This document shows, one piece after another, positions 8,215 to 18,941 of a DNA stretch of 64,000 nt. The notes under the pieces were generated by a model. It made no database searches. It was not told the origin of the DNA and saw only the letters and a list, made by a program, of their open reading frames with translations. Source of the DNA: Maribacter vaceletii (GTDB lineage Bacteria; Bacteroidota; Bacteroidia; Flavobacteriales; Flavobacteriaceae). Each line of letters begins with the position of its first letter. Positions within the stretch are counted from its first letter, which is position 1. Location of the stretch: contig NZ_RBIQ01000010.1 of the NCBI RefSeq assembly GCF_003634105.1, forward strand, positions 1-64,000, read 5' to 3'. The position numbers and the translations under genes were made by a program.

Positions 8215-8882
8215 CTTGGGAACCGCTACTACTAACATTTAAATTAGCATTGGTAACAACAATTTTGTTATTCGTTGTGGCTATTCCTTTGGCCTATTGG
8301 CTGGCTTTTTCTAAATCCAGAATAAAACCTGTGATAGAGACTTTAGTTAGTATGCCTTTAGTATTACCGCCAACTGTTTTAGGGTTTTATTTTTTAATAG
8401 CTTTTAGTCCCAATAATAGTTTTGGAAATTGGTTAGATTCTTTTTTAGGAATTAAACTTGTTTTTTCTTTTACAGGATTAGTAATAGCCTCTATTATTTA
8501 CAGTTTACCATTTATGGTACATCCCATACAATCTGGTTTTTCTAGTATTTCTTCAACTCTAAAAGATGCTTCTTACGTCATGGGAAAATCTAAATTTAAT
8601 ACTTTAATTAATATTTTACTTCCTAATATAAAACCTTCTTTACTAACAGGAATTATACTCGCTTTTGCACATACTGTAGGCGAATTTGGTGTTGTTTTAA
8701 TGATTGGTGGTAGTATACCCGGAAGCACAAAAGTAGCATCTATAGCTATTTATGATGAAGTAGAAGCTTTAAATTACGGTGCTGCTAACTTTTACTCTTT
8801 AGTCCTATTTGGTGTAACCTTTTCTATTCTATTATTGGTTTACTTAATTAATGGTGGCTATTTAAAACGTTTTTGGAAATGA
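8211..8882 (+). CDS. modB: Molybdate ABC transporter permease
   Basis: A 223-residue inner-membrane permease with about five transmembrane segments. The EAA-type coupling loop is recognisable: LKDASYVMGKSKFNTLINIL followed by LPNIKPSLLTG. The second half carries AFAHTVGEFGVVLMIGGSIPG, a diagnostic ModB/CysW motif. It overlaps the upstream Mop gene by 4 bases, and its TGA overlaps the modC ATG (ATGA). It forms the membrane channel of the molybdate importer with ModA and ModC. Confidence 0.93.
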   Translation: MTWEPLLLTFKLALVTTILLFVVAIPLAYWLAFSKSRIKPVIETLVSMPLVLPPTVLGFYFLIAFSPNNSFGNWLDSFLGIKLVFSFTGLVIASIIYSLPFMVHPIQSGFSSISSTLKDASYVMGKSKFNTLINILLPNIKPSLLTGIILAFAHTVGEFGVVLMIGGSIPGSTKVASIAIYDEVEALNYGAANFYSLVLFGVTFSILLLVYLINGGYLKRFWK

Positions 8883-10947: not shown

Positions 10948-11826
10948 ATGAAAACCAAATTCCTTTTTTTATTCACTTTATTACTTACCATAAGTTTTAT
11001 AAGCAATGCGCAAAAAAAACAGAAAGATTGGGAGCATTTATTAGACAAAGACCTTACTAAATGGGATGTTTTTATAGGGGTACCACATACAACAGTAGAT
11101 TTAGAAGGGTATGAAAAAGGAGACGGTATGCATGGTACACCTGTAGGTTTAAATAAAGACCCTTTACATGTTTTTACGGTTACTAAAACAAAAAAAGATA
11201 TTCCTGTATTAAATGTTTCTGGCGAAATATATGGAGGATTAAGTACTAAAAAAGAATACGAAAATTACCACCTTACTTTTAACATAAAATGGGGAACAAA
11301 ACAATGGGAACCACGTTTAAAAGATAAAAGAGATAGTGGCGTTTTATACCATGCACAAGAACCTCATGGTCAATTCTGGAATGTTTGGATGAAAGCTCCA
11401 GAAATGCAAGTACAAGAAACAGACTCTGGAGATTTTTTCCCATTAGCAGGTGTTAGTATGGATATTAAAGCTACCAAGCGCGAAGAAAATGGTAAAGAAT
11501 TTTGGTTTTATGACCCTAAAGGAGAATTAAGAACTTTTAAAACTGGTGCTAATGGTCGATGCAGAAGAATAGATAATTTTGAAAAACCTCATGGAGAGTG
11601 GAATAAATTAGAGTTAATTTGTCTTGGCAACAAAGCATACCATATTGTAAATGGTAAGGTTGTTATGGTTCTTGAAAACTCCTTAGAGTATGACAAAGAA
11701 GGGAATGCTACACCTTTAACAAAAGGAAAAATTCAGTTTCAGTCAGAAGCTGCTGAAGTGTTCTACAAAAACATAAAAATTAGAAGTATTACTAAACTAC
11801 CTAAGAAAATAGCAGCACAATTATAA
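10948..11826 (+). CDS. DUF1080 (3-keto-disaccharide hydrolase-like) secreted protein
   Basis: A 292-residue exported protein with a signal peptide (1-21, ending ISNAQ) and one DUF1080 concanavalin-like domain. Typical pieces are LDKDLTKWDVFIG, YGGLSTKKEYENYHLTFNIKWG, RDSGVLYHAQEPHGQFWNVW and the C-terminal KGKIQFQSEAAEVFYKNIKI. Some members hydrolyse 3-keto-glucosides; many act on glycans that are not known. The gene stands alone with its own terminator, so there is no context to narrow the substrate. Confidence 0.85.
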   Translation: MKTKFLFLFTLLLTISFISNAQKKQKDWEHLLDKDLTKWDVFIGVPHTTVDLEGYEKGDGMHGTPVGLNKDPLHVFTVTKTKKDIPVLNVSGEIYGGLSTKKEYENYHLTFNIKWGTKQWEPRLKDKRDSGVLYHAQEPHGQFWNVWMKAPEMQVQETDSGDFFPLAGVSMDIKATKREENGKEFWFYDPKGELRTFKTGANGRCRRIDNFEKPHGEWNKLELICLGNKAYHIVNGKVVMVLENSLEYDKEGNATPLTKGKIQFQSEAAEVFYKNIKIRSITKLPKKIAAQL

Positions 11827-11835
11827 TTACAATAT

Positions 11836-11866
11836 AAAAGAGGAGCTCCTTTGCTCCTCTTTTATA
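11836..11866 (+). terminator. Rho-independent terminator after the DUF1080 gene
   Basis: AAAAGAGGAGC (11836-11846) pairs with GCTCCTCTTTT (11853-11863) around a 6-base loop. Confidence 0.85.
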
Positions 11867-11884
11867 TTACCTCTTATTTTCTAT

Positions 11885-11892
11885 TACCTTTG
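11885..11892 (+). promoter_or_regulatory. Bacteroidota -7 element before the radical SAM gene
   Basis: TACCTTTG fits TAnnTTTG and lies 34 bases before the TTG start at 11927. No convincing TTTG -33 box is seen. Confidence 0.4.
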
Positions 11893-11926
11893 CACCTTAC
11901 ATTAATTGCTTAATTAAATAGGTCCT

Positions 11927-14119
11927 TTGGAAAACGTATTACTTATTACCCCTCCTTTTACGCAACTAAATACTCCCTACCCTGCAACGGCTTATTTAAA
12001 AGGTTTTTTAAACACCAAAAACATTAATGCCTACCAATCCGATTTAGGAATAGAGGTTATTCTTAAACTTTTTTCAAAAGAATATTTACAACTAGTTTTT
12101 ACTACAGTGCAGGATAATAAGACAATAGTTTCTGAAAATGCAGAACGTATATATGCCTTAAGAGTATCTTACCTAAAAAATATTGAAGATGTAATTCTTT
12201 TTCTACAAGGAAAAAATCAAACTTTTGCAAGACAGGTATGTACACAAGGGTTTCTTCCAAGAGCATCTAGGTTTCAACAATTAGACGACTTAGATTGGGC
12301 TTTTGGTTCTATGGGCCTACAAGACAAAGCAAAACATTTATGCACTTTATTTTTAGAAGATTTATCAGACTTTATAATTGAATGTATAGATGCTAATTTT
12401 GGATTTAGTAGATACGCAGAACGCCTTGGCCGTAGTGCTAACGATTTTAACGAAATATATAATGAATTACAGCAAGATATAACCTTTATAGATAGTATTA
12501 CTTTAGATCTCCTGGAAGATTTATTACAAAAAACAAACCCAAAATTGGTATGTTTTTCCGTTCCTTTTCCTGGAAATTTATATAGTGCTTTTCGTTGCTC
12601 TCAATATATAAAAACACATTTCCCTACTATAAAAATTGCTATGGGAGGTGGTTTCCCTAATACCGAATTAAGGCAACTTACCGATGTTCGTGTTTTTGAA
12701 TTCTTTGATTATATAACCTTAGATGATGGCGAGTTACCAATAGAGTTACTTTACCATAATCTAAATAATACAGATATCACTAAAGGAGAATACAAGCGTA
12801 CTTTTCTATTAGAAAATAATACGGTAACCTACAAAAACAACACAAAAAAACAAGACTACAAACAAAACCAATTAGGAACTCCAGACTATTCTAATTTACT
12901 ATTAGACCAATACGTTTCTGTAATAGAAATTGCAAACCCAATGCATAGCCTTTGGAGCGATGGCCGATGGAACAAACTTACCATGGCACATGGCTGTTAT
13001 TGGGGAAAATGTACTTTCTGCGATATATCCTTAGACTACATAAAGCTTTACGAACCTATTACGGCTACAATTTTAGTAGATCGTATGGAAGAAATTATAG
13101 CACAAACTGGAGAAACAGGTTTTCATTTTGTAGATGAAGCTGCACCACCTTCTTTAATGAAAAGTCTTGCTTTAGAAATACTAAAAAGAGAACTAACCGT
13201 TACTTGGTGGACAAATATACGTTTTGAGAAAAATTTTACTAAAGATTTATGCCTCTTATTACAAGCATCTGGCTGTATTGCTGTTTCTGGCGGATTAGAA
13301 GTAGCATCGGACCGTTTATTACAATTAATAGACAAAGGGGTAACTGTAGAACAAGTGGCAAGAGTAACACGTTATTTTACTGAAGCCAATATTATGGTAC
13401 ACTCCTACTTAATGTATGGTTACCCAACACAAACCGTACAAGAAACTATAGATAGTTTAGAAATGGTACGCCAACTTTTTGAAATAGGCGTTCTACAATC
13501 TGGGTTTTGGCATCAGTTTGCATTAACAGCGCATAGTCCTGTAGGCATAAACCCTAAAGATTATGCAATTACTCCAAAATATAACGCTATTACGTTTGCG
13601 AATAACGATATAGATTTTACAGACCATACCGGAATAGATCATTCTAAATTTAGCTACGGATTAAAAAAATCTTTATTCAATTATATGCATGGGGTTAGTT
13701 TTGAGCTAGCCCTGCAAGATTGGTTCAATTTTAAAATACCAAGCACCACAGTACACCCCGATTTTATTTATAATTGCATAGAAAATGAGCTACCAAGGAT
13801 TCCAAAACCACAACACAAAATATGTTGGTTAGGAAACTCGCCCACCATAGAATATAGCGCTAAAACAAAAAGGGGGCAAAGTTGGGAATTAGCTACACTA
13901 AATTTCCATAACCACGACGAATCTTTTGCCATAACCCTAAATAAACAAGAAGGAGATTGGCTTGCTAAGCAATTTAAAAACTTAAGCCCTAGTACTAATA
14001 AGATTATTTCTTTTAAAGAATTAAAAACTAATTATGAATCTACTTTTACCGATTTTGAACTGTTTTGGTCATCTAAGCCAATAAAAACATTAAGAGATAA
14101 AGGTTTATTATTACTTTAG
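11927..14119 (+). CDS. B12-binding-domain radical SAM protein, CX4CX2C cluster motif
   Basis: A 730-residue cytosolic enzyme. It begins with a cobalamin-binding-like Rossmann region (VLLITPPFTQLNTPYPATAY; GGGFPNTELR near 239). The radical SAM core follows at about 350-560, with MAHGCYWGKCTFCDI near 352, FHFVDEAAPP, and VSGGLEVASDRLL. The three cluster cysteines are spaced CX4CX2C, not the usual CX3CX2C. The last 180 residues are of unknown fold. The start is TTG at 11927 with no earlier in-frame ATG nearby. Members of this group methylate or rearrange unactivated carbons; the substrate is not known and no biosynthetic partner genes lie alongside. Confidence 0.85.
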   Translation: MENVLLITPPFTQLNTPYPATAYLKGFLNTKNINAYQSDLGIEVILKLFSKEYLQLVFTTVQDNKTIVSENAERIYALRVSYLKNIEDVILFLQGKNQTFARQVCTQGFLPRASRFQQLDDLDWAFGSMGLQDKAKHLCTLFLEDLSDFIIECIDANFGFSRYAERLGRSANDFNEIYNELQQDITFIDSITLDLLEDLLQKTNPKLVCFSVPFPGNLYSAFRCSQYIKTHFPTIKIAMGGGFPNTELRQLTDVRVFEFFDYITLDDGELPIELLYHNLNNTDITKGEYKRTFLLENNTVTYKNNTKKQDYKQNQLGTPDYSNLLLDQYVSVIEIANPMHSLWSDGRWNKLTMAHGCYWGKCTFCDISLDYIKLYEPITATILVDRMEEIIAQTGETGFHFVDEAAPPSLMKSLALEILKRELTVTWWTNIRFEKNFTKDLCLLLQASGCIAVSGGLEVASDRLLQLIDKGVTVEQVARVTRYFTEANIMVHSYLMYGYPTQTVQETIDSLEMVRQLFEIGVLQSGFWHQFALTAHSPVGINPKDYAITPKYNAITFANNDIDFTDHTGIDHSKFSYGLKKSLFNYMHGVSFELALQDWFNFKIPSTTVHPDFIYNCIENELPRIPKPQHKICWLGNSPTIEYSAKTKRGQSWELATLNFHNHDESFAITLNKQEGDWLAKQFKNLSPSTNKIISFKELKTNYESTFTDFELFWSSKPIKTLRDKGLLLL

Positions 14120-14278
14120 TAGTATTCTATTTTAAATGGCATGTAGTTAAAATTATCTGTTTATAGGGGTGTTATGAGTAATACGGAAAATTGTTTTGAA
14201 CAGTAACATTTGAACTAAAAAAAGCCAACCGCACAAACAGCTCAAAAACGGAACACAAAACAAAATAAGAATAGACTT

Positions 14279-14296
14279 TGCAACACCATTGCATTG
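14279..14296. promoter_or_regulatory. Candidate Fur/Zur-family operator before the DUF6660-TonB genes
   Basis: TGCAACACCATTGCATTG contains the dyad TGCAA-cacca-TTGCA. It matches the motif at 17295-17312 in 15 of 18 positions. It lies just upstream of the -7 element TATCTTTG, where a repressor would block polymerase. Confidence 0.5.
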
Positions 14297-14305
14297 AAAT
14301 TTATT

Positions 14306-14313
14306 TATCTTTG
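14306..14313 (+). promoter_or_regulatory. Bacteroidota -7 element, possibly giving a leaderless mRNA
   Basis: TATCTTTG fits TAnnTTTG and ends 5 bases before the ATG at 14319, so transcription would begin at or next to the start codon. This argues against the alternative GTG start at 14313. Confidence 0.5.
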
Positions 14314-14318
14314 TGCCA

Positions 14319-14636
14319 ATGAAATTTATAACTATCATACTATCATTATTAATTCTTGGTTTGTCAATCAAACCTTGTTCTGACGGAAATAATGCCGAAG
14401 ACCAACACCAAGAAGAAATAACTGCTGAACATAATCATCAAAATGATAGTGATGATACTTGTCCTATAACTTGTATTTGTAATTGTTGTGGAATCGCAAT
14501 TACATATCAACCAATTCAAACTTTTGAATTAGGTGTAAATAATCAAATTTCTACAGAAATAATATCTGATTATCAATCAATCTACAGATTTAATTTTCAT
14601 TCCAATATCTGGCAACCGCCACAATTGATTAGCTAA
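14319..14636 (+). CDS. DUF6660-family exported Cys/His-rich small protein
   Basis: A 105-residue protein with an N-terminal hydrophobic signal (KFITIILSLLILGLSIKPCSD) and a short mature part. The mature part is rich in potential metal ligands: HQEE...HNHQN, then a C-x3-C-x-C-x-CC cluster (CPITCICNCCG). DUF6660 proteins usually lie before metal-efflux or TonB genes in Flavobacteriia. Here it opens a cassette with a TonB receptor, a Fur-family regulator and an ICMT-like enzyme. A periplasmic metal-binding or metal-sensing role is likely but is inference. Cys20 could be a lipidated residue, although the lipobox is poor. Confidence 0.7.
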   Translation: MKFITIILSLLILGLSIKPCSDGNNAEDQHQEEITAEHNHQNDSDDTCPITCICNCCGIAITYQPIQTFELGVNNQISTEIISDYQSIYRFNFHSNIWQPPQLIS

Positions 14637-14687
14637 ATTATCGACAAAAAGTCAAAAAAATTTAGTTAATTAATTTTTACCTTTTCA

Positions 14688-16874
14688 ATGAATAAATACA
14701 TATTGAGCGTAATGCTCGCAATTATAATGTGCTTTTTTGCCAAAGCACAAACATCTGACATACAAATAAAAGTAGTTTCAGAAACCGAAAACGAGCCATT
14801 ATTAGGTGCAACAGTCTATTTTGAAGAATTAGAAAAAGGAGCAGTAACCGATTTTGACGGAATTGCAACTTTTACTGAAATTCCAAACGGAAATCAGACT
14901 CTAAAAATTTCATACGTTGGTTTTAAAACTATTGAAACCACTATTGAAATTGGTACAAAAAAAATCTTTTCGTTCAAACTTGAATCGGGTGGAAATGAAT
15001 TGGATGAAGTTGTTATCCAATCTTCAAGAAGTACAAGAACCGTAAAGAAAATCCCAACAAGAATAGAATTTATTGGAGTTGAGGAATTGGGAGAAAAAGC
15101 GATAATGAATCCAACGAATATTTCTATGGTGCTTCGTGAAAGTACAGGAATTCAAATGCAACAAACATCTTTAAGTAGTGGAAGTACAAACATTAGAATT
15201 CAAGGTCTTGATGGTCGTTATACACAACTTTTGAGAGATGGATTTCCACTTTATGGAGGCTTTTCAAGTGGTTTGAGTATTTTACAAATTCCGCCTTTAG
15301 ACTTACAACAATTTGAAATCATAAAAGGAAGTTCATCTACACTTTATGGTGGTGGAGCAATTGCAGGTTTAATAAATATGGTGTCAAAAACACCAGACGA
15401 AGAACCAGCTTTAGACATTATGCTTACGCAAACACAAGCATTGGGAAGTACTGCAAATATATTTTACAGCAAACGGAATGAAAAATTTGGTATTTCGCTT
15501 TACGGTTCTGGACATTACCAAAAAGCGTTTGACCCAGAAGATGATGGTTTTAGTAATTTGCCAAAAACTACTTCTATTTCATTCAACCCAAAATTCTTTT
15601 ATTATCCATCAAACAAAACAACATTTTGGTTTGGTTTAAATGGAACGTATGACAATAGAATTGGTGGAGATATTACAAAAATAGAAAGTGGCGAAAACGG
15701 AATTCATCAATACACAGAGGAGAACATTTCAAAAAGATTAAGTAGTCAAGCAGTTTACAAGACTCAAATAGATTCTATAAGTTCTTTCAACATTAAAAAT
15801 AGCGTGTCATTTTTTGATAGAAATTTAACGATACCAGATTTTAGTTTTGATGGTAAGCAAACCAACACATTTACCGAAGTTACATATCAAAGAGAAAACT
15901 TAAAAACAGATTGGATTTTTGGAGCAAATTTATATACTTCAAACTTTAATGAAAATGATAATGCGACATTACAACGTGACCAAAAAGACATCACTTACGG
16001 AATGTTTGCTAACAATATTTATGACCTTTCCGAAAATTGGATTTTAGAAACTGGATTGCGAGCAGATTACAATACTGATTTTGGCTTTTTTCCGCTTCCA
16101 AAAATTTCTGTACTTTATAAAAATGATAGCGGATTTTCGAGTAGAATTGGTGGTGGTTTAGGCTATAAAATTCCAGATATATTTACAGAAGAGGCTGAAT
16201 TTATCAATTTTGAAAATGTACTCGGCATTGATAAATCTTCATTAAAAGCAGAACGTTCTTATGGTGTAAATTTAGATTTCAATTATCAAACACGTTTATT
16301 TGAAACCATAAGTTTTTCTATTAATCAACTTTTTTACGTTACTGCTATAAACAACGGATTGTTGTTAAATAGCACAAACAACGGATTTTTTGAGTTTGAA
16401 AATGCAACTGACGAAATTTTGAGTAAAGGAGCAGAAACCAATATAAAGTTTACTTATAAAGATTTTAGATGGTTTTTAAATTACGCTTTTATAGATACAA
16501 AACTGAACTATTTAGCTGGAAATCCACAAAAACCATTAACTGCAAAACATAATGCAGGGAGTGTTTTAATGTACGAATCTGATAAATGGCGAATAGGTTA
16601 TGAAACGTTTTATACTGGGAAACAATTTTTATCAAACGGAACAGAAACAACAGATTTTGTAACGATGGGTTTACTTTTAATGAGAAACTTTAAATTTGGT
16701 AGTGCATTCGTGAATTTTGAAAATTTCACAGACAGAAGACAAAGTAGGTTTTCACCTTTGGTTTTACCACCACACGAAAATCCAGAATTTCCCGAAATCT
16801 ATGCGCCAACTGATGGTTTTATTTTTAGCGTTGGAATTATTATTAAACCATTTGGAAACAAAGACCACGATTAA
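14688..16874 (+). CDS. TonB-dependent outer-membrane receptor, probably for metal uptake
   Basis: This encodes 728 residues: signal peptide (1-20, ending KAQ), CarboxypepD_reg-like beta domain (about 24-105: LLGATVYFEELEKGAVTDFDGIA... split pattern), plug (about 120-235, with SGSTNIRIQGLDGRYTQLL and YGGGAIAGLINMVSK) and a 22-strand-type barrel ending in aromatic residues. It resembles siderophore/cobalamin-type receptors and has no SusD partner. It lies 51 bases after DUF6660 and 2 bases before a Fur-family regulator, so metal or metallophore import is the simplest reading. The substrate (zinc, iron, copper or a complex) is not readable. Confidence 0.85.
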   Translation: MNKYILSVMLAIIMCFFAKAQTSDIQIKVVSETENEPLLGATVYFEELEKGAVTDFDGIATFTEIPNGNQTLKISYVGFKTIETTIEIGTKKIFSFKLESGGNELDEVVIQSSRSTRTVKKIPTRIEFIGVEELGEKAIMNPTNISMVLRESTGIQMQQTSLSSGSTNIRIQGLDGRYTQLLRDGFPLYGGFSSGLSILQIPPLDLQQFEIIKGSSSTLYGGGAIAGLINMVSKTPDEEPALDIMLTQTQALGSTANIFYSKRNEKFGISLYGSGHYQKAFDPEDDGFSNLPKTTSISFNPKFFYYPSNKTTFWFGLNGTYDNRIGGDITKIESGENGIHQYTEENISKRLSSQAVYKTQIDSISSFNIKNSVSFFDRNLTIPDFSFDGKQTNTFTEVTYQRENLKTDWIFGANLYTSNFNENDNATLQRDQKDITYGMFANNIYDLSENWILETGLRADYNTDFGFFPLPKISVLYKNDSGFSSRIGGGLGYKIPDIFTEEAEFINFENVLGIDKSSLKAERSYGVNLDFNYQTRLFETISFSINQLFYVTAINNGLLLNSTNNGFFEFENATDEILSKGAETNIKFTYKDFRWFLNYAFIDTKLNYLAGNPQKPLTAKHNAGSVLMYESDKWRIGYETFYTGKQFLSNGTETTDFVTMGLLLMRNFKFGSAFVNFENFTDRRQSRFSPLVLPPHENPEFPEIYAPTDGFIFSVGIIIKPFGNKDHD

Positions 16875-16876
16875 TT

Positions 16877-17293
16877 ATGAAAATAATTGAAGAATTTTTA
16901 GAATCAAAAGATATTAGAGTAACTGCAATGCGTTTATTAATTTATAAATTCCTTGCCGAAAAACAAGTTGCAGTTACATTAAGCGATATAGAAAATGCTT
17001 TTGAGAAAGCAGATAGGACAACATTATACAGAACTATTAAAACATTTGAAGAAAAAGATATTGTGCATCAAATAGGCGATGGCACAGGAATTACGAAATA
17101 TGCTTTGTGTGAAAAAGGTTGTAATTGTGAGATTGAAACCGATTTGCATTTACATTTTCATTGTAATAACTGTAACGAAACCATTTGTTTAACAGAACAT
17201 AAAATTCCTCAAATAAAAGTGCCTGATGGATTTGTTTCAGAAAACGTAAACTTGGTTGTAAAAGGAATTTGCGATAAATGTAGCGGACAATAA
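16877..17293 (+). CDS. Fur-family metal-responsive regulator (Zur/PerR-like)
   Basis: A 138-residue repressor: winged HTH (VTAMRLLIYKFLAEKQVAVTLSD...DRTTLYRTIKTFEEKDIVHQI) and a C-terminal dimer domain with HLHFHCNNCNETICL and the final CDKC. These are the two CxxC pairs of the structural zinc site. There is also an unusual CEKGCNCE run near 78. It follows the TonB receptor by 2 bases and is very likely cotranscribed. Operator-like motifs at 14279 and 17295 flank it. Zur is my first choice from the operator shape; other Fur subfamilies are possible. Confidence 0.88.
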   Translation: MKIIEEFLESKDIRVTAMRLLIYKFLAEKQVAVTLSDIENAFEKADRTTLYRTIKTFEEKDIVHQIGDGTGITKYALCEKGCNCEIETDLHLHFHCNNCNETICLTEHKIPQIKVPDGFVSENVNLVVKGICDKCSGQ

Positions 17294-17294
17294 A

Positions 17295-17312
17295 TGCACT
17301 TCCATTGCATTG
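17295..17312. promoter_or_regulatory. Candidate Fur/Zur-family operator before the ICMT-like gene
   Basis: TGCACTTCCATTGCATTG matches the motif at 14279-14296 in 15 of 18 positions and begins 2 bases after the Fur-family stop codon. It precedes the methyltransferase start by 34 bases. Confidence 0.5.
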
Positions 17313-17346
17313 GTTATTATAGCATTTTTACATAAAATTAGAAACT

Positions 17347-17931
17347 ATGTTATTATTCGCTTATCTCATATTGTATTTTTTATTGGTCTTTGTTTTAAGG
17401 TCTGTATTACTTTGGAAAAAAACTGGAATAAATCCATTCACATTTGAAAAAACAGATAATGCACACGACTATAATGGTAAGGTTTTTACATTTATCACAG
17501 TTCTTGAGCTAATTGTTGTAGGAATTTATGCTTTTAAAGAAGAATGGTATGAATATTTACTTCCTTTTTGGTATTTGGAAAATCAAACTTTACAGAAAAT
17601 TGGTTGGGTACTTTTGTTGGTATCACTGATTTTTGTTTGGTTTTCTCAAAGCCAAATGGCAAATTCTTGGAGAATAGGAATTGATGAAAACAACAAAACC
17701 AAATTGGTAACAAAAGGAGTATTTTCAATTTCAAGAAATCCTATATTTTTAGGAATAATGATTACGAATATCGGGTTGTCCCTTGTAATTCCTAATGCAT
17801 TTACATTACTAATAATTTCATTATCTACTTTAAGCGTAAATACACAAATTCGATTAGAAGAAGAATTTTTAAAACTTGAATTCGGAAATGAATATAAAGA
17901 ATACGCAAAAAAAGTAAGACGATGGATTTAA
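17347..17931 (+). CDS. Isoprenylcysteine carboxyl-methyltransferase-like membrane protein
   Basis: A 194-residue inner-membrane protein with four to five hydrophobic segments and the ICMT/PEMT SAM-binding C-terminus: GVFSISRNPIFLGIMITNIG followed by RLEEEFLKLEFGNEYKEYAKKVRRW. Homologues occur in cobalt/zinc/cadmium resistance clusters (CzcN/NccN type), which fits this cassette. The native substrate in bacteria is not known. It has its own copy of the candidate operator. It is the last gene before a long spacer with a structured repeat. Confidence 0.82.
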   Translation: MLLFAYLILYFLLVFVLRSVLLWKKTGINPFTFEKTDNAHDYNGKVFTFITVLELIVVGIYAFKEEWYEYLLPFWYLENQTLQKIGWVLLLVSLIFVWFSQSQMANSWRIGIDENNKTKLVTKGVFSISRNPIFLGIMITNIGLSLVIPNAFTLLIISLSTLSVNTQIRLEEEFLKLEFGNEYKEYAKKVRRWI

Positions 17932-17944
17932 TAATTAACGTAAA

Positions 17945-18117
17945 ATTGCCAACGCTTAAAGCCATACACATTTACAGTCGCATCATCCAAGCTTCGCCAA
18001 AACTGTAAAAGAGTATGTCTTGCCAACGCTCACTTTGGAACTAAATAACAAACATCGGAAAACCAAGTTGAACGTGAAAAGCACTATGTATAAGAACGTA
18101 CATAACACATAGCTGTC
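17945..18117. repeat. Structured accessory-region repeat with direct TTGCCAACGCT copies
   Basis: The 350-base gap 17932-18281 holds no gene. TTGCCAACGCT occurs at 17946-17956 and 18020-18030. Between them CATAC...TACAGT pairs with ACTGTA...GTATG around the AGCTTCGCC region, forming a long hairpin. A further pair CTATGT/ACATAG lies at about 18084-18112. Such sequences are common beside transferred genes in flavobacteria, from memory. A separate hairpin CCAAATT/AATTTGG (18158-18176) follows. Confidence 0.5.
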
Positions 18118-18281
18118 ATTGGATTTTCCAAAGGTTTTTGTCTATCTACAAAGTACGCCAAATTTTTTTAATTTGGTATATTTAAAAAGTAATAATAAAT
18201 CGTAAAAATTTAAAAAATCGGATGGTGTTATTTCGAAAAGTTAACGCATATTTTTAGCACTACTTTTCATATAAGGAGCCA

Positions 18282-18767
18282 TTGACATTAATAAAGAAAA
18301 CTAAATTGAAAATTAGAGAAACACATAGAAATGATTATACCATTTCAACTGACAAGGATAAATTAGATATTTTGAGCATTCACAAATTCCTTACAAAAGA
18401 AACTGATTGGGCTAACGGAATTCCAATCAACACTTTAAAAACATCAATTGAAAATTCTTTGAATTTTGGGCTTTATTACAAAAGCAAACAAATTGGCTTT
18501 GCTAGAATAATTTCAGACTATTCTACTATTGCATATTTAGGAGATGTTTATGTTCTAAAGGAATATAGGGGAAAAGGATTAAGTAAATGGCTGATAAATG
18601 AAATAATGGAACACCCTAATCTTCAAGGATTAAGACGCTGGATTTTATTAACTGATACAGCTGAGTGGCTTTATAAAAAGTTTGGATTTACAGGAATACC
18701 TAATCCAGAATTTTATATGGAAAAGCATAACCCGAAGGTATATAATAAAAGCCCAAAAAAAGGTTAA
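18282..18767 (+). CDS. GNAT-family N-acetyltransferase
   Basis: A 161-residue acetyltransferase: YYKSKQIGFARIISDYSTIAYLGDVYVLKEYRGKGLSKWL holds strands 2-4 and the acetyl-CoA loop (Q/R-x-x-G-x-G/A as YRGKGLS), and WLYKKFGF is the usual C-terminal motif. The start is TTG at 18282 behind an AAGGAG, a stronger Shine-Dalgarno than its neighbours, which hints at foreign origin. It sits after a structured accessory repeat. The acceptor is unknown. An in-frame coding remnant follows its stop. Confidence 0.85.
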   Translation: MTLIKKTKLKIRETHRNDYTISTDKDKLDILSIHKFLTKETDWANGIPINTLKTSIENSLNFGLYYKSKQIGFARIISDYSTIAYLGDVYVLKEYRGKGLSKWLINEIMEHPNLQGLRRWILLTDTAEWLYKKFGFTGIPNPEFYMEKHNPKVYNKSPKKG

Positions 18768-18842
18768 CCAGATGAAGTAGTTAAAGAGGCAATTGCTATA
18801 TCAAAAGAGCTAGATAAAATCAGTAAGCCACCAAAAGAATAA
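18768..18842 (+). pseudogene. In-frame coding remnant after the GNAT stop
   Basis: Directly after the GNAT TAA the same frame stays open for 24 codons and reads like real protein (DEVVKEAIAISKELDKIS, then KPPKE and TAA). It has no start codon. It may be the tail of a second gene lost by deletion, or an old extension of the GNAT protein cut by a stop mutation. Confidence 0.35.
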
Positions 18843-18872
18843 GTCGGTGTTAAAAAGAAAAAATGATAAAAT

Positions 18873-18937
18873 ATTTTGCTTAGTACAGATTTAGAAATGT
18901 ACCGATTCTCTGAGTTGTACTAAGCAAAATTTATTTT
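18873..18937. terminator. Bidirectional terminator, perfect 15-bp inverted repeat
   Basis: ATTTTGCTTAGTACA (18873-18887) and TGTACTAAGCAAAAT (18916-18930) are perfect complements around a 28-base loop. A T-run follows on the plus strand. It separates the GNAT gene from the convergent ThuA gene. Confidence 0.7.
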
Positions 18938-18941
18938 TTTC

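Follow-up and report, generated by a model that had tools for sequence, protein, structure and literature searches.

A decayed gene cassette in Maribacter vaceletii with a putative self-regulated metal operon and Fur-coupled operators

Two nearly identical 18-bp sequences stand ahead of two transcripts in a compact gene set of Maribacter vaceletii (contig NZ_RBIQ01000010.1), and one of these transcripts includes a Fur-family regulator gene. The locus raises the question of whether this regulator controls both transcripts, whether the set serves the uptake or the export of metal, and how far the unit extends. We analyzed the window, by which we mean the whole stretch of 64,000 nucleotides (positions 1 to 64,000 of the contig), together with related loci in other genomes. 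The gene calls of the initial annotation (DUF6660, TonB receptor, FUR family and PEMT/ICMT-like) were upheld by domain and family model searches, and the four-gene set is indeed without a pump of its own (Table 1). It had been placed at 14279-17931; the set is real, but the mobile cassette that carries it has its ends outside those limits, at 14171 and 18275.

Table 1. Features of the metal-operon cassette and its surroundings, in window coordinates
Feature	Position	Strand	Remarks
Metal-operon gene cassette	14171..18275	+	4105 bp, both ends decayed
Decayed cassette start GTTATGAGTAATAC	14171..14184	+	intact relatives: GTTGTGCATAATGC
Operator 1 TGCAACACCATTGCA	14279..14293	+	dyad TGCAA-N5-TTGCA, over -33 region
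-7-type promoter element TATCTTTG	14306..14313	+	12-bp gap to operator 1 fixed among relatives
DUF6660 protein	14319..14636	+	105 aa, signal sequence, Cys-rich
TonB-dependent outer-membrane receptor	14688..16874	+	728 aa
Fur-family regulator	16877..17293	+	138 aa
Operator 2 TGCACTTCCATTGCA	17295..17309	+	immediately 3' of Fur stop codon
-7-like element TAGCATTT	17320..17327	+	weak match
ICMT/PEMT-like integral membrane methyltransferase	17347..17931	+	194 aa
attC-like site, GCACTATGTATAAG ... AGCCATTG	18078..18275	+	decayed; relatives GCACTATGCACAAC ... GACCGTT
GNAT acetyltransferase gene	18282..18767	+	within same inserted segment
Segment missing from same-genus genome G251 (L176)	14120..18938	.	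metal cassette and GNAT gene

The operators and their coupling to a Fur lineage

Both sequences were found where claimed, TGCAACACCATTGCATTG at 14279-14296 and TGCACTTCCATTGCATTG at 17295-17312, with 15 of their 18 positions identical. The first contains the TGCAA/TTGCA dyad that had been noted, and 12 bp downstream of the dyad lies TATCTTTG, the -7 type element of Bacteroidetes. When the window was searched with the union pattern of the two sites, allowing up to three mismatches, these were the only matches, with 0.20 expected, and 3 of 100 shuffled windows reached two. The significance of the pair from the window alone is modest, and it is the comparative evidence that makes it decisive.

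A genome scan with TGCANNNCCATTGCATTG, suggested in the initial annotation, returned exact matches only at these two places in the host genome of ~3.89 Mb, and every remaining match there carries two mismatches. The operator is a 15-bp TGCAM-N5-TTGCA dyad, found just past the Fur stop and ahead of the DUF6660 promoter. By itself, TGCAA-N5-TTGCA is too loose for a genome-wide search, giving 180 matches at one mismatch. A perfect dyad, TGCAATGCCATTGCA at C5:27742, was rejected as an operator; it is within a pyruvate-dehydrogenase-type coding gene. A scan for sigma-70 promoters was uninformative, with counts lower than in shuffles.

Searching with the Fur protein, we collected 80 relatives that are 88-97% identical to it and come from a wide range of Flavobacteriaceae genera. 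A TGCA-N7-TGCA site follows the Fur stop codon within 90 bp in 77 of them, and across 48 distinct post-Fur sequences the 15-mer TGCACTTCCATTGCA is nearly invariant while its flanks vary. Ahead of DUF6660 the relatives have TGCAACACCATTGCA or TGCACAACCATTGCA, always with the 12-bp gap to TATCTTTG, a geometry kept at only ~30% DUF6660 identity and even where a CzcA pump gene follows. Fur proteins as low as 56% identity (range 56-97%) retain TGCACTTCCATTGCA right past the stop codon, and on Bacteroidota plasmids TGCAATAGCATTGCA or TGCAATGCAGTTGCA, with the same half-sites, overlaps or follows the Fur stop in 3 of the 5 checked.

We also surveyed the family at the level of 249 genomes, in which 150 TGCANNNCCATTGCA sites were listed and the Fur genes counted were those entered as queries. 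Listed sites lie within 9 kb of a Fur gene of the window's lineage in 42 of 44 cases when the core is CTT, 18 of 21 when it is CAA and 14 of 14 when it is ACA (74/79 for these three commonest cores together), against 6 of 71 for other cores. All but one of the 80 listed Fur-proximal sites are on the Fur strand. The idea that the cassette's own Fur-family regulator controls both transcripts agrees with this co-occurrence of motif and gene, the shared strand, the promoter geometry and the persistence of the sites beside divergent neighbors; because the operator is conserved and coupled to the lineage Fur gene in the 249 genomes, control through an operator common to the two transcripts is well supported. 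In G053:C14, G074:C22, G117:C9 and G172:C3 the lineage is represented by two or three Fur paralogues, arranged in tandem or near one another.

The placement of the operator over the -33 region, near the -7 element, is the usual one for a repressor and suggests repression. In the stretch 14306-14321 of the window, TATCTTTG ends 5 bp 5' of the DUF6660 start codon, and relatives are spaced much alike; given this spacing, the DUF6660 transcript probably has little or no leader.

The regulator matches the FUR domain PF01475 at 40.9 bits (gathering score 23.1), and none of the curated NCBIfam Fur, Zur and PerR models matched it above cut-off, the Zur model NF008646 scoring 26.1 bits against a cut-off of 167. 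In an alignment with 12 relatives, C78, C82, C84, H91, H93, H95, C96, C99, C132 and C135 are invariant, so that both halves of the Cys4 structural zinc site, C96xxC99 and C132xxC135, are in place. By eye, C78 falls on the FurB cysteine of the Zur-type site 2. The hinge CxC is missing from the distant homologues L126 and L127. The closest solved structures are distant, and the AlphaFold model (mean pLDDT 61) is too poor for placing the metal site.

Metal context and proposed regulation

The clusters around the 80 Fur genes hold a CusA/CzcA protein fused to an outer-membrane efflux domain, a CzcB-type adaptor and a ZntA-like P-type ATPase, and further MerTP, GDCCVxC, DUF3703 and HYC_CC_PP. The ZntA-like ATPases have CPC and DKTG in 64 of 64 cases. 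An export gene (RND CusA/CzcA with CzcB, and/or the ZntA-like ATPase) is near Fur in 66 of the 80 relatives, and the gene 5' of Fur encodes CzcB in 52 cases and TonB in 26. A comparative search for the gene set, which the initial annotation had proposed, recovered the window's order DUF6660-TonB-Fur in 14 relatives, but the other 66 have export genes; the pump-less relatives are exactly these 14, with L041 differing 3' of Fur, and they are the integron-type cassettes described below. TonB-type operons with an exporter also exist (DUF6660-TonB-Fur-operator-DUF3703-P-ATPase), so TonB occupies the place that CzcA-CzcB has elsewhere. Plasmids of Pontibacter, Adhaeribacter, Hymenobacter and Flavobacterium carry annotated DUF6660 and/or RND-adaptor-Fur-P-ATPase sets. 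For the substrate class of the RND pumps, the motif patterns that we used gave no match to HME1, and in open-licence papers we found nothing on point for DUF6660, HYC_CC_PP, or Fur with CzcA in Flavobacteria.

The explanation that we favor, and consider fairly likely as a whole, is a decayed integron-type cassette carrying a self-regulated metal module. The Fur-family protein would bind the 15-bp operator at the promoter of DUF6660-TonB-fur and at that of the ICMT-like gene, and when bound would cover the -33 region and repress both transcripts, its own gene included. The operators would most likely open under an excess of a toxic divalent or soft metal of the Zn/Cd/Pb/Hg class, a proposal based on the export operons that this regulator and its operators govern elsewhere. 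The TonB receptor, DUF6660 and ICMT-like proteins may form an envelope metal-handling set, and the IntI-like integrase described below would recombine the cassette. Several points weigh against this explanation. Classic Fur and Zur repressors bind DNA when metal-bound, so an export repressor that opens in metal excess would have to work by inverted logic or possess a second site that triggers release. The hinge cysteines are not found in some distant homologues, the Fur model is poor, and the pump-less cassette could act unlike its export relatives.

The set had initially been read as an uptake or envelope-modification module rather than one for efflux. As a Zur-like uptake module, metal-bound Fur would repress the TonB receptor, DUF6660 and the ICMT-like gene, and scarcity would induce them for scavenging. 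A TonB receptor normally imports, the cassette has no pump, and the YALC cysteine and HxHxHC motif of the regulator are like those of the solved Zur-type FurB. Known Zur proteins, moreover, bind over promoter elements to repress TonB receptors (PMC4176598). However, in 66 of the 80 relatives this Fur, at 88-97% identity, and these operators accompany exporter genes of the CzcA/CzcB and ZntA-like kinds, and even the TonB-type operons of relatives can include DUF3703 and a P-type ATPase. Annotated plasmids of other Bacteroidota have a like linkage. Though the cassette itself is pump-less, the export context of its relatives counts against a plain uptake module, and we think this reading unlikely.

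We give still less credence to Fur as a metal-dependent activator of both promoters. There is a precedent in Caulobacter, where Zur activates the RND and P-ATPase operon czrCBA-zntA from a site upstream of -35 (PMC4176598), and activation would reconcile a Zur-type metal logic with export genes, but the operator here covers the -33 region, at a constant distance of 12 bp from the -7 element. That the 18-bp match is a duplication leftover, or a promoter or recombination repeat that is no operator, is hardly credible, since the two matches reached by 3 of 100 shuffles are set against genome-wide uniqueness, co-occurrence with Fur and conservation beside different flanking genes.

Cassette boundaries and the recombinase arrays

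Nucleotide identity between the window and its relatives spans ~14240 to 18273, well beyond the last gene, and the 3' part of the cassette is a repeat that recurs in relatives behind other genes on the same strand. In the relatives the unit begins exactly at GTTGTGCATAATGC, mostly abutting another repeat that ends there; the repeat belonging to the unit itself opens with GCACTATGCACAAC, which is the reverse complement of the start with one fixed mismatch. The precise start is found in 14 relatives, and intact units are 4151-4188 bp long, with one of 4064 bp. The cassettes of L023 and L024 (Aquimarina and Winogradskyella) are 97.2% identical and those of L027 and L028 (Polaribacter and Patiriisocius) 98.8%, and in neither pair is there similarity in the left or the right flank, which documents transfer between genera.

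What defines the geometry of an integron cassette is that its start is complementary to its own repeat. Across 20 distinct cassettes, the start agreed with the complement of its own repeat at a mean of 6.05 of 7 free positions, whereas 10,000 shuffles gave a mean of 2.46 and a maximum of 4.0. The relatives have a start complementary to the R'' of their own attC, precise ends and unrelated flanks, as integron cassettes do. In matched pairs of cassette start and R'', the otherwise complementary arms repeatedly have an A/G mismatch at their position 11, and this is possibly the mismatch signal of a recombination site.

In the window, the start GTTATGAGTAATAC, the repeat start GCACTATGTATAAG and the repeat end AGCCATTG are all decayed, so this copy is probably no longer mobile by the integron-type route. 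The empty site is preserved in the same-genus genome G251, where the rSAM gene is followed by ~50 bp and then a PQQ/ThuA gene. No attC-like site was recognised after the GNAT gene, and the PLSDB plasmids hold no close copy of the metal cassette. The radical SAM protein just 5' of the insertion (11927-14119) has its best NCBIfam match, below cut-off, among RiPP C-methyltransferases. Short hairpins with the direct repeats TTGCCAACGCT / GCCAACGC occur near both cassette ends (17944-18030 in the window, and in the left flank of L023-L053); the left hairpin is mostly missing in the window.

Tyrosine recombinases in nearly all of the 249 genomes match the integrase model TIGR02249 below its cut-off, which was reached in none of the 249. 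Complete frames usually encode 369-398 aa, including an N-terminal extension of ~95 aa and, at the C terminus, an SPLD motif, and have no counterpart to residues 183-242 of IntI4 (2a3v), the IntI-specific additional domain (patch III region). The best matches to a structural model of the integrase (pLDDT 79) were XerA and IntI4, at low TM-scores.

In most genomes examined, the IntI-like gene is immediately 5' of an array that runs directly downstream on the same strand, with up to 27 attC-like sites in 19 kb. A cassette rule independent of any model found 209 pairs on the array strand and 0 on the opposite strand at 28 loci, and 1 match in 178 kb of neighboring control DNA. Arrays are weak at G131, G123 and G168, and none were found at the short recombinases of G034 and G016. 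The attC-like sites are mostly 126-131 bp, with a long form of ~190 bp, and are imperfect palindromes (R''=..YAAC, R'=GTTR..) without an Rfam match; they fold into imperfect hairpins in which the R boxes pair, and for the long form the energies of both strands are close. Array cassettes have a median length of 733 bp, with the 95th percentile at 2034 bp, which makes an outlier of the metal cassette. The recombinase of the host lies 129 bp from a contig end, and contig C9 (L135) of that genome is pure array. Contigs of the surveyed genomes often stop 60-200 bp beyond the integrase stop codon. Long same-strand arrays of small unrelated genes, set apart by attC-like sites and downstream of these recombinases, are seen across the family at L154, L155, L160-L173 and L135, and one small gene with its attC-like site is present twice in one L053 array (8286-8747 and 11651-12112), a cassette duplication.

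Significance and relation to known systems

As published, IntI is defined by the extra domain, and Salinibacter ruber is the one member of the Bacteroidetes for which IntegronFinder 2.0 reported complete integrons, so systems such as these may have entered such counts as arrays lacking an integrase, if at all. Open-licence papers gave nothing on point for integrons in Flavobacteriaceae, and an integron-like system in this family is apparently previously undescribed. More tentatively, we suggest a widespread Flavobacteriaceae integron-type system in which a domain-less IntI-like recombinase moves, besides small single genes, a complete self-repressing metal operon, with a Fur lineage of inverted logic that would open export and envelope genes when metal is in excess. 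If this is true, the arrays beside the domain-less recombinase would be a large overlooked platform for gene exchange across the family, and would test the need for the IntI extra domain in attC recombination. The metal cassette would mean that an integron-type platform can carry a whole regulated operon, and a Fur-family repressor on export genes would pose the question of how a metal-dependent DNA binder switches on metal export.

The regulator resembles the Fur family (Fur/Zur/Nur/PerR) in its FUR domain, its C96xxC99/C132xxC135 structural motif and a dyad of Fur-box length, 15 bp, but differs in being tied to export genes in relatives and in the extra CxC in the hinge. The half-sites and spacing of the operator are like those of the Nur box, tTGCaa-N5-ttGCAA (PMC3919588). 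As in Caulobacter, a Fur-family protein goes together with an RND pump and a ZntA-type ATPase (PMC4176598), although Caulobacter Zur is a global regulator and the Fur here is encoded within the operon. With the Bacteroidota CzcABC/ZntA operons that carry DUF6660, DUF3703 and HYC_CC_PP, the cassette shares the Fur, the operators, DUF6660 and the ICMT-like genes, but it has a TonB receptor for CzcA-CzcB and no ATPase. The arrays are like integrons in their same-strand order, palindromic attC-like sites, precise cassette ends and adjacent IntI-like tyrosine recombinase. Unlike in integrons, the integrase lacks the IntI-specific segment, has the ~95-aa N-terminal extension and is read in the direction of the array, and the metal cassette, at 4.1 kb, holds four genes with their own promoters and their own regulator.
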